From: Salinarchaeum sp. Harcht-Bsk1
Lineage (GTDB): Archaea > Halobacteriota > Halobacteria > Halobacteriales > Salinarchaeaceae
Direction of reading: 5' to 3'
DNA length: 64,000 nt
Assembly: GCF_000403645.1 (NCBI RefSeq)
Contig: NC_021313.1
Span: 2,065,014-2,129,013, forward strand
The notes under the pieces are model-generated. The model was not told where the DNA came from, searched no databases, and was given only the letters and a program-made list of their open reading frames with translations. The position numbers and the translations under genes were made by a program. The first letter of the stretch is position 1. Each line of letters starts with the position of its first letter. Of this stretch, positions 1,091 through 46,378 are shown one piece after another.

Positions 1091-1517
1091 GAAAGCCCCC
1101 GATCGCTCGAGGGCTGCGGCTCGCTGTGCTCCTCGCCCCAGTCGCTGCCACTCCTTTGGCTGTGGTGCTTACTTCGCCTCGCTCCGTCGAGCGATCGGCC
1201 CCTTTCGGAGACCACCCAGACACCCTCACTCCTCCCCAGCCTTCTGCGCTACTCGGGTTCGCTTCGCTCACCACTGCGTTGCTCGGCCCTCGCACGGTGT
1301 CGCGCAGATGGCTGCTCGCCCGCTTCGGGGCTCGCAGCCACACGCAGCGCGCGCCGACGTGGTCCACCGGGTCTCTGCGATCGGTGGATACTCTCACCGG
1401 GTGGGACTGGAAGGGGCCGACCGCTCGACGAAGGCCGGCGAAGCAAGGACCGCAGGCGAACGTAGTGAGCCGAGGACCGCAGCGAGCCGCCCGAGTCGAG
1501 CGGGAGGGGGCTTCCAA
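1091..1517. repeat. Composite interspersed repeat, copy A (two facing hairpins)
   Basis: This fills most of the 595-bp gap between the rhomboid gene and nth. The left arm (1091-1217) runs from GAAAGCCC to CCCTTTC, and the 12-bp arms CCGATCGCTCGA and TCGAGCGATCGG are perfectly complementary. The right arm (about 1396-1517) has the opposite orientation, starting GGGTGGGACTGGAAGGGGCC and ending GGGGCTTCCAA, with inner arms CCGCTCGAC and GTCGAGCGG. A conserved spacer (1218-1390) separates them and contains TGGCTGC...GCAGCCA. The whole unit recurs at 6680-7155. I find no credible gene in it; the open frames crossing it lack haloarchaeal protein character. Confidence 0.85.
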
Positions 1518-6679: not shown

Positions 6680-7155
6680 GAAAGCCCCCGATCGCTCGAG
6701 GGCTGCGGCTCGCTGCGCGCTTCACTCACTTCGTTCGCTGCAGTGCTTGTTCCGATAGACTCGCTACGCTCGTCTATCGACGTTCGCCTCACTGCGTTCG
6801 GCTCACCGTCGCCTCGCACCGTCGAGCGATCGGCCCCTTTCGTAGTCCACCCAGACGCCTCATTCCTCCCCAGCCTTCTGCGCTGCTCGCGTCGCTCCGC
6901 TCGCTTCGCTGCTCGGCCCTCGCACGGTGTCTGCGAGTGGCTGCTCGCCCGCTTCGGGGCTCGCAGCCATCGCGTAGCGCGCGCCGACGTGGTCCACCGG
7001 AGTTCAGCTATCGGTGGAACTCCACACCGGGTGGGACTGGAAGGGGCCGACCGGTCGTGCTCGCTCACGACGAAAGCACAGCAGGCGAACGAGCGAAGCG
7101 AAGTGAGCCGATGCGCGCAGCGAGTGAGCGGGCACGAGCGGGAGGGGGCTTCCAA
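6680..7155. repeat. Composite interspersed repeat, copy B
   Basis: Same layout as copy A at 1091-1517. The left hairpin (6680-6852) has the identical 12-bp stem CCGATCGCTCGA/TCGAGCGATCGG. A conserved spacer contains the TGGCTGC...GCAGCCA stem. The right hairpin (about 7026-7155) is in opposite orientation. Its inner stem, GTGCTCGCTCAC with GTGAGCGGGCAC, differs in sequence from copy A but is still paired. It fills most of the 668-bp gap before proS and ends 110 bp before its TATA box. No gene is seen in it. Confidence 0.85.
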
Positions 7156-7294: not shown

Positions 7295-8755
7295 ATGAGC
7301 GACGACGACGCCCAGGAACTGGGCATCACCGAATCGAAAGAGCACGCCACCGGCGAGTGGTACGCGGAGGTCGTCCAGAAGGCGAAGGTCGCGGACTACG
7401 CGCCCATGGGCGGCTTCATCGTGACCAGGCCCCGTGGGTGGGCGCTCTGGGAGGCGGTTCAGGACTTCCTCGACGCGAAGTTCAAGGACACCGGCGTCGA
7501 CAACGCCTACTTCCCGCTGTTCATCCCCGAGTCCTACCTCGAGCGGGAGAAGGACATAGTGGAGGGGTTCGACCCCGAGGTCGCGTGGGTGACCCACGGC
7601 GGCCACGACGAACTGGAGGAGCGACTCGCCGTCCGCCCGACCAGCGAGTCGATCATCGCCCCGTTCATGGCGCAGTGGACGCGCAGCCACCGCGACCTGC
7701 CGATGCGCCTCAACCAGTGGTGCTCGGTCGTGCGCTGGGAGGCGACGGAGACGAAGCCGTTCTTCCGCACGAAGGAGTTCTGCTGGCAGGAGGGCCACAC
7801 CGCCCACGCGACCGCCGACGAAGCGTGGGAGGAGACGATGCTCCGCCTCGACCAGTACGAGGCGGTATACGAAGACCTCCTCGCGATCCCCGTCCTCCGC
7901 GGGCGCAAGCCGGAGCACGACAAGTTCCCCGGCGCGGAAACCACGACGACGGTCGAGGCCCTCATGCCCGACGGCAAGTCCGTGCAGGCCGGGACGAGCC
8001 ACGACCTCGGCACCTCCTTCGCGGACGCCTTCGAGATCACCTACACCGACGAGGACGAGGAAGAGGCCACCGCGCACACCACCTCCTGGGGTCTGTCCTG
8101 GCGCGCGCTCGGTGCGCTGATCATGACCCACGGCGACGACCAGGGCCTCGTCCTGCCCCCCACGATCGCACCGACCCAGGTCGTCATCGTCCCGATCTGG
8201 CAGGAAGACACCCGCGAGGACGTCCTCGACTACTCCGAGGAACTGGCCGAGGACCTCGAGGAGGCCGGCCTGCGCGTCGACCTCGACGACCGCGACACCC
8301 GGAATCCCGGCTTCAAGTTCAACGAGCACGAACTCAACGGCGTCCCCCTCCGCATCGAGATCGGACCCAACGAAGTCGAGGACGAGGAAGCGACCCTCGT
8401 CCACCGCCCCGACGGCGAGTCCGTCGTCGCCGACCGCGACTCCGCCGTCGACGACGTCGAGGACGCCCTCGACGAGGTCTACGACAAACTCTACGCCGCG
8501 GCGGAGGAGAACCTCGAGGAGAACGTCCGCGAGGCCGACGAGCCCAGTCAGATCCTCGGCACGATCGGCCAGCACGGCGGCTACGTCAAGTGCGGCTGGT
8601 GTGGCGACGAGGCCTGCGAGACGGTGATCAAGGACGAGATCGCGGCCGAGATCGTGATGGTGCCCCTCGATCGCGACGAGGAGCCGATCCAGGACGACTG
8701 CGCGATCTGTGGCGAGGAATCGACCGAGACCGCGTACTTCGCGCGGACGTACTGA
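7295..8755 (+). CDS. proS: Prolyl-tRNA synthetase, archaeal/eukaryote type
   Basis: The 486-residue class II synthetase attaches proline to its tRNA. Motif 2 is clear (RPTSE at 114-118, RWE near 147-149, then FFRTKEF and the WQEGHTAH proline-site segment). Motif 3 follows in GALIMTHGDDQGLVLPP. The C-terminal extension has two Cys pairs (CGWCGDEAC and CAIC) and ends in an aromatic TY. These are features of the archaeal/eukaryotic form; the bacterial editing insertion is absent. ATG 7295 is chosen because a TATA box sits 25-30 nt upstream. Confidence 0.97.
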   Translation: MSDDDAQELGITESKEHATGEWYAEVVQKAKVADYAPMGGFIVTRPRGWALWEAVQDFLDAKFKDTGVDNAYFPLFIPESYLEREKDIVEGFDPEVAWVTHGGHDELEERLAVRPTSESIIAPFMAQWTRSHRDLPMRLNQWCSVVRWEATETKPFFRTKEFCWQEGHTAHATADEAWEETMLRLDQYEAVYEDLLAIPVLRGRKPEHDKFPGAETTTTVEALMPDGKSVQAGTSHDLGTSFADAFEITYTDEDEEEATAHTTSWGLSWRALGALIMTHGDDQGLVLPPTIAPTQVVIVPIWQEDTREDVLDYSEELAEDLEEAGLRVDLDDRDTRNPGFKFNEHELNGVPLRIEIGPNEVEDEEATLVHRPDGESVVADRDSAVDDVEDALDEVYDKLYAAAEENLEENVREADEPSQILGTIGQHGGYVKCGWCGDEACETVIKDEIAAEIVMVPLDRDEEPIQDDCAICGEESTETAYFARTY

Positions 8756-41827: not shown

Positions 41828-41891
41828 AATCCGGTCTCTCGGCTCGGTGGGGTTCAGTATTTGCCGTGAATCCCGCCAGCGTAACCGCTTC

Positions 41892-41987
41892 GAAAGCCCT
41901 CGGCCCGCTGGCGTGCGCTCAGCCGGATATCCTCGCGTCGCTCGGATAGGGCCGGCTGAGCGCACGCCAGACGGGCCTCGCCCTTTC
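41892..41987. repeat. Long perfect-stem hairpin, interspersed-repeat copy E
   Basis: A nested stem: GAAAG (41892) with CTTTC (41983), GGCCCG (41902) with CGGGCC (41972), a perfect 19-bp arm pair (41908-41926 with 41952-41970, CTGGCGTGCGCTCAGCCGG), then TATCC with GGATA around an 11-nt loop. It is followed by AGTCCACC. On the minus strand it has the family 5' flank GGTGGACTGAAAGGG. It lies between the YegP-repeat gene and the phosphopantoate ligase gene, both on the minus strand. Confidence 0.9.
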
Positions 41988-42092
41988 AGTCCACCAGGTG
42001 GAGCGGGGTATCGGCCAAGTTACGGACTCTGGGCCTCGGTAGCCGAAACGAGCGGTCGAAAATCGCTAGGCGCGCAGTAACGGCGGACGGCC

Positions 42093-46095: not shown

Positions 46096-46378
46096 TCGGA
46101 AGCCCTCTCCCGCTCGCCGCACCTAACTCGCTGCGCGCTTCGCTCGGCCTTCGGCCTCGCTTCAGTGCTTACTTCGTTACGTGCGGCGAGCGGTCGGCCC
46201 CTTCCGGAGCCCCACCCGGAGACTTTGTTCAGTTGAGCGACGACGTGGGGATTCCGGCTGCGTTCCGCGTCGGGAATCCGGCCTGCTACAGCCCGTTCGA
46301 CGATCCACAGCACGTTGCGACCGATCCATACGCACCGGGTGGGACTGGAAAGGGCCGACGAGCGGGAGGGGCTTCCGA
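46096..46378. repeat. Interspersed hairpin repeat pair, copy D
   Basis: The left hairpin (46096-46217) has GGAAGCCC...CCCTTCC ends and a perfect 13-bp inner stem, CCGCTCGCCGCAC with GTGCGGCGAGCGG, unlike copies A-C in sequence. The right element (46334-46378) is a minimal 45-bp version: CGGGTGGGACTGGAAAGGGCC joined almost directly to GCGGGAGGGGCTTCC. The spacer between them (46218-46333) is not like that in copies A and B. This occupies most of the 420-bp gap between pantoate kinase and dUTPase; no gene is seen in it. Confidence 0.85.

Follow-up and report, generated by a model that had tools for sequence, protein, structure and literature searches.

The closest described systems are the REPINs and, in haloarchaea, the PATEs and SMRs of Haloquadratum. 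REPINs are, in the passages cited, short, intergenic hairpin units of high copy number that form inverted doublets with a spacer, and in the REP-RAYT system solo units are remnants and ordered clusters repeat the flanking sequence (PMC3116915). According to the cited passages on Haloquadratum, PATEs contain no transposase, have palindromes close to their termini, are frequently heterogeneous and in most cases are linked to a short conserved terminal oligonucleotide, and SMRs, which have terminal inverted repeats and are highly conserved within a type (commonly >95% identity), gave no transposase match there, their mobilisation being left unexplained (PMC3119063). Apart from these passages on REPINs, PATEs and SMRs, the open-licence literature, judged at the level of titles and abstracts, yielded no description of the hairpin family reported here, and among the matching papers listed for two end motifs and their complements, none was on haloarchaea by title. 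We put the probability at about 0.6 that the hairpin studied here belongs to a small mobile DNA element of haloarchaea, non-autonomous and present at this site as a solo copy. The observations behind this reading are the dispersed copies with near-fixed ends, the palindromic and variable stem, the inverted pairs, the patchy presence across the order and the absence from the locus in relatives.

The hairpin lies in the window, by which we mean the whole 64,000-nt stretch of Salinarchaeum sp. Harcht-Bsk1 DNA that was analysed, and the first-pass annotation had described it as a near-perfect hairpin of 96 nt. This extent is exact, running from the GAAAG to the CTTTC foot; the two perfect 19-bp arms are 100% complementary with 25 nt between them (Table 1), and the extensions claimed for them, GGCCCG/CGGGCC (with one unpaired A) and GAAAG/CTTTC on the outside and TATCC/GGATA on the inside, all pair in the predicted fold. 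The minimum free energy (MFE) of the 121-nt stretch 41880-42000 was -71.3, compared with -47.3 +/- 3.6 for shuffled sequences (z -6.74; none of 200 shuffles did as well). With a loop of up to 60 nt allowed, perfect inverted repeats in the window reached 19 at most, and arms of 19 bp were reached in 0 of 60 first-order Markov windows, in which the maximum was 18, seen once. By its arms, its fold energy and the simulated windows, the hairpin is real and beyond chance. It had also been called the most regular copy, and it does have the lowest energy (-68.8) among 14 copies folded from three genomes, a ranking which is limited to those 14 and leaves out copies with other loop types. Its placement between two minus-strand genes was confirmed: it lies in the gap that separates the start of a gene of the phosphopantothenate/pantothenate synthetase family (PPS_PS) from the end of a gene with seven DUF1508 stretches (PF07411).

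Table 1. Positions in the window of the hairpin, its parts and the copies of the sister subfamily.
Feature	Position	Strand	Basis
Hairpin: GAAAG foot, C-rich internal loop, variable stem, ATATCC-type apical helix, CTTTC foot	41892..41987	+	fold, inverted repeat, alignment
Near-invariant 5' end GAAAGCCCTCG (5-nt foot, then CCC and TCG)	41892..41902	+	conservation in 158 elements
Left 19-nt arm	41908..41926	+	inverted-repeat search
Right 19-nt arm	41952..41970	+	inverted-repeat search
3' motif TCGCCCTTTCAGTCCACCAGG; its final 11 nt, 41988-41998, form the tail beyond the hairpin	41978..41998	+	17 places in own genome
Sister-subfamily hairpin (GAAAGCCC ... GGCCCCTTTCGGAGACCACCC)	1091..1217	+	motif, position
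Tail-to-tail partner of the 1091..1217 copy	1395..1515	-	motif, position
Sister-subfamily hairpin	6680..6852	+	motif, position
Tail-to-tail partner of the 6680..6852 copy	7025..7153	-	motif, position
Sister-subfamily hairpin (GGAAGCCC ... GGCCCCTTCCGGAGCCCCACCC)	46098..46217	+	motif, position
Short tail-to-tail partner of the 46098..46217 copy	46333..46376	-	motif, position

The proposal that the hairpin belongs to a family with further members in the window was borne out. It is one copy of a dispersed repeat with near-fixed ends and a variable stem, the family ends being 5' GAAAGCCCTCG and 3' TCGCCCTTTCANTCCNCCAGG, and the last 11 nt of the latter lie outside the hairpin; in the window copy these are the conserved tail AGTCCACCAGG, beyond the hairpin end that had been annotated. 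Among 158 elements, themselves picked with <=1 mismatch in the first 10 nt, conservation of the 5' end is 97-100% over positions one to ten and 92% at position eleven. Because elements were selected by the end motifs (the 3' motif at <=1-3 mismatches, the 5' motif at <=1), conservation inside these motifs is partly built in. Two results are free of this bias, namely the whole-hairpin BLAST, with 18 matches in the own genome (some partial or on the opposite strand) and matches in 4 of 20 other genomes, and the own-genome scan for the 3' motif, in which 15 of the 17 places were perfect though 2 mismatches were allowed. Just outside the ends, conservation in the pooled sample is weak (positions -1, -2 and -4 are C, T and C in 46-61%, and the base that follows the 3' end is A in 47% or G in 37%), and in Halosimplex, HArc-gm2 and Haloparvum the flank similarity between copies extends past the ends as defined here. 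The 5' motif was found within 1,500 nt upstream of the 3' end in 159 of 170 collected elements, at 100-139 nt in 113 of these.

Across the order, 66 of 293 genomes, belonging to 32 of 87 genera, contain the exact 3' motif, against 0 for the reversed pattern, and the highest copy numbers, 128 and 115, are those of two genomes (G285 and G190). When genomes were drawn from the phylum and <=1 mismatch was allowed, 12 of 43 genomes of the order had the motif; of 203 genomes from other orders or groups, 1 had it, at one place and with a mismatch. The exact 20-nt pattern gave 0 matches in viral contigs, phage records gave none, and among plasmids there was a match in 1 record, from Haloarcula sinaiiensis. 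The hairpin repeat is frequent in several haloarchaeal genera.

Neighbouring copies closer than 350 nt are arranged tail to tail in 26 of 28 pairs, and for 55 of 218 elements a partner in this arrangement lies within 400 nt. The paired share differs by genome, being 17 of 21 in 200-kb stretches of G285 and G190 and 2 of 17 in the own genome, where the window copy is solo. A comparison of tail mismatches between paired and solo copies was dropped, since the copies had been sampled by their tail. We also recognised 45 upstream arrays of the GAAAGCCCTCG unit (<=2 mismatches) with spacings mostly of 51-63 nt, and the 3' motif follows within 500 nt after 37 of them. Downstream repeats are specific to lineages, with GGCAGAAAC...GGCGGTTG in some metagenome-assembled genomes (MAGs) and CACCGCA/ACAGCA followed by CACCTCCCCAGCC in Halosimplex.

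Several further repeats were seen in or near these regions. In the tandem GAAAGCCCTCG arrays (L048, L133, L054, L109 and 41 others), multiples of three (48, 51, 54, 57, 60, 63 and 75) make up 59 of the 71 spacings, the spacings within one array not being independent; a coding reading of the arrays, with K-A-L-G in one frame, was dropped because, as judged by eye, other arrays have stops in that frame. A different repeat of ~114 nt lies ~270 nt from a hairpin copy (L051:4621-4735) and recurs, mostly 88-96% identical, in dozens of places in the MAGs QS_4_66_20, SW_7_65_23 and SW_10_66_29. A high-copy repeat of 85-90 nt borders the 5' side of the hairpin at L225, ~27-115 nt upstream, and is mostly 97-100% identical in dozens of places in G293-G295, most of the listed ones in G294. 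At L217, a ~50-nt sequence (GTTGTGATTATTTTC...) is found ~64-115 nt downstream of the hairpin and recurs dozens of times in the genomes G293 and G295.

A sister subfamily (GRAAGCCC ... GGCCCCTTYCNNAGNCC...) occupies 30 places in the own genome at <=2 mismatches, counted by motif match rather than by hairpin fold, and its motif matches 7 of 117 genomes of the order at <=1 mismatch. Three sister copies lie in the window, each with an inverted partner (Table 1). The first two of these pairs, at 1091-1515 and 6680-7153, are composite inverted elements with TCCTCCCCAGCCTTCTGCGCT in their common centre; a part of this sequence, CTCCCCAGCC, is found again downstream of hairpins in Halosimplex.

Conservation of pairing had been set as a check on the hairpin, and pairing was found to be kept with compensatory changes among 14 dispersed copies from three genomes. 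These 14 are the ATATCC-loop type among 30 copies, aligned on the structure of the window copy; the second copy of L027 and copies with longer or different loops were left out. In this alignment 87% of the stem cells are paired, and two-sided changes occur in 16 of 38 pairs, a number reached in 0 of 500 shuffles and compared with 2-4 in slid versions of the structure. The GAAAG/CTTTC foot is paired in the MFE structure of 175 of 193 distinct elements, with a median z of -3.4 (20 shuffles each), after 25 of 218 elements had been dropped because they lacked the 5' motif, were shorter or longer than 45-260 nt, contained N or were duplicates, and hairpin lengths are mostly about 95-220 nt. If selection acted on an RNA, G-U would be expected to be favoured on the strand of that RNA. 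The interior of 191 elements, compared with its own complement at 8410 positions, comprised 6233 Watson-Crick pairs, 288 G-T, 208 A-C and 1681 other mismatches, and the G-T/A-C ratio of 1.38 is below the 1.57 expected from the base counts of the strand, so that there is no G-T excess and no sign of the wobble-tolerant conservation on one strand that marks a structured RNA. Because G-T is not in excess over A-C, the palindrome looks to be kept as DNA rather than as RNA, which would be compatible with its transcription.

A mobile hairpin would need an enzyme to move it. In the own genome, a single contig that is 99.21% complete, there were 0 matches for the Y1 transposase family PF01797 and 0 for TnpB (PF07282). 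PF01797 gave 0 matches in three further genomes of high copy number as well (G057, G167 and G211, with 40, 14 and 20 copies of the exact pattern), and its presence in 7 of the 11 genomes of high copy number and in 5 of 11 that have no copies shows no clear association. Clustering of the open reading frames of 120 loci of up to 8 kb disclosed no transposase or partner-gene cluster recognisable by eye, the largest clusters (at most 25 shown) being the repeat itself or readings of unrelated genes. The moving enzyme is probably not an IS200/IS605 Y1 transposase now encoded in the own genome. In G059, eight of ten PF01797 matches have internal stop codons, which suggests decay of IS200-type genes there. 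These searches bear directly on the idea that the family is a PATE-like remnant of IS605-type transposons, in which fused near-terminal palindromes were moved by TnpA. The features of the Haloquadratum PATEs given above, including the terminal oligonucleotide, and the PF01797 genes of the 7 high-copy genomes would agree with such an origin, but the own genome has neither family, the three PF01797-free genomes are rich in copies, and the pairs are inverted, whereas the two hairpins of IS605 lie on one strand. We consider this origin unlikely.

The window locus itself varies among relatives. In a genome of the same genus (G001), both flanking genes are kept and other sequence lies between them, with no hairpin, and in G008 the gap is compact and the hairpin is likewise absent. 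By eye, the gap between the PPS_PS and DUF1508 orthologs of G001 (L191) holds an apparent nucleotidyltransferase gene and a small second gene. At other loci, the middle of the stem is missing in L152 and L085 compared with their orthologs L063 and L075, both ends remaining, and ~63 nt of the partner hairpin differ between L057 and L117. When 10 joined sites were searched in three MAG genomes, 2 near-empty orthologs were found (L218 and L210), 1 site was occupied in both genomes (L201) and 7 were uninformative, including L205, which was matched elsewhere by its left flank only; a single-site search with L051 found its site occupied in the second genome too. In both near-empty pairs (L218/L251 and L210/L252), the hairpin is present in one genome, and in the other there is just a GAAAGCCC unit. 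These sites show presence-absence variation, and hairpin loss is as possible as gain because the GAAAGCCC unit remains at both. Neither a transposition event nor an excision product was observed, and no site gave a clean boundary of a target.

Another view is that a structure-prone sequence is kept by the chromosome for a DNA function, for example as a binding site of a nucleoid or repair protein, and has spread by duplication and horizontal transfer and not by a transposase. Near-invariant ends, both orientations and mostly intergenic placement would fit such a site, as would the ends present in L152 and L085 though the apical part is missing. However, 227 of the 293 genomes of the order have no exact match of the 3' pattern and two have more than 100, and the sequence is not kept at the window locus in the same-genus genome, which makes this view very improbable.

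With respect to genes, 42 copies lie between genes of their own strand, 40 in divergent, 37 in other-strand and 24 in convergent gaps (baseline gaps 129, 132, 129 and 97, taken from the same loci), and 8 of 151 classified copies are inside called genes, the genes being called by an acidity rule rather than by annotation and 27 copies at locus edges being left out. The role in ending or processing a transcript that the first-pass annotation had suggested was not supported, and a terminator or RNA-processing hairpin between the two minus-strand genes is highly unlikely: a strong predicted fold in a gap between co-directional genes would suit one, but copies show no orientation bias and occur in all gene orientations roughly in proportion to the gaps, the hairpin is absent from the orthologous gap in G001 and G008, G-T is not in excess, and Rfam 15 gave 0 matches at the gathering score in the whole window.

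Considering the above results, we propose a model for the hairpin as a mobile element. The element would fold into a hairpin when its DNA is single-stranded or extruded, and a DNA-acting enzyme supplied in trans would recognise the foot (GAAAG/CTTTC), the C-rich mismatched loop and the adjacent tail AGTCCRCCAGG, and would move or copy one hairpin or an inverted pair. As only the ends would be read in this proposal, the middle of the stem could change freely, become shorter or take up inserted hairpins, and solo copies such as that of the window may be remnants. Several observations stand against a mobile element. No transposition event was observed, no partner gene was recognised near copies, and no Y1 transposase was found in the own genome or in three others of high copy number. 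The similarity past the ends in several lineages and the lineage-specific tandem flank units are not explained by a simple element model, and pairing in the own genome is limited to 2 of 17 copies. A broader and more tentative suggestion, which we regard as doubtful, is that the family represents an order-wide class of haloarchaeal mobile DNA, marked by a hairpin whose foot and tail hardly vary while its stem evolves freely, and that a recombinase other than the Y1 (IS200/IS605) type moves it in the form of folded single strands. CTCG recurs in both arms, so that the other strand has CGAG opposite CGAG; under this broader suggestion, these could form tandem G-A pairs and give the enzyme its strand specificity. 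The repeat provides a sequence signature for seeking an unrecognised single-strand DNA recombinase in archaea, and in these genomes a strong hairpin between genes should not by default be taken for a terminator or a small RNA.

By analogy, the hairpin repeat would work most like REPINs, and it resembles the PATEs and SMRs of Haloquadratum. MITEs are characterised by terminal inverted repeats shared with a transposon and by target duplication; in the present family the inverted pairs bring inverted ends with them, a parent transposon was not identified, and neither near-empty site gave a clean target duplication. Integron attC sites have near-invariant ends around a variable, imperfect palindrome and act as folded single-stranded DNA, which a tyrosine recombinase cleaves; the hairpins may resemble them in their ends and palindrome and differ in that their copies are dispersed. 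With SMRs they share the lack of a transposase match, whereas their stem is strongly variable. Like PATEs as described in the cited passages, they are haloarchaeal, transposase-free, palindromic, often heterogeneous and present in many copies (PMC3119063). Unlike PATEs, they form inverted pairs, and gene searches gave no IS605-type TnpA/TnpB in the own genome (PF01797 and PF07282) to whose palindromes theirs might be related, nor a recognisable transposase cluster in the 120 loci. They differ from REPs in their GAAAG...CTTTC ends with an 11-nt 3' tail and in their greater length, REPs having, in the cited passages, a GTAG or CGTC tag and 20-40 bp (PMC3733652). Because the transposase test failed in the own genome, which has no RAYT-type PF01797 gene, we have filed the family under neither REPIN/RAYT nor PATE, and as far as gene searches can tell it would stand apart from both. 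Its likeness to REPINs lies in hairpin units that are intergenic, dispersed and multi-copy, in inverted doublets (nearly all close pairs, though few copies of the own genome), in solo copies such as that of the window and in clustered repeats with their flanks.
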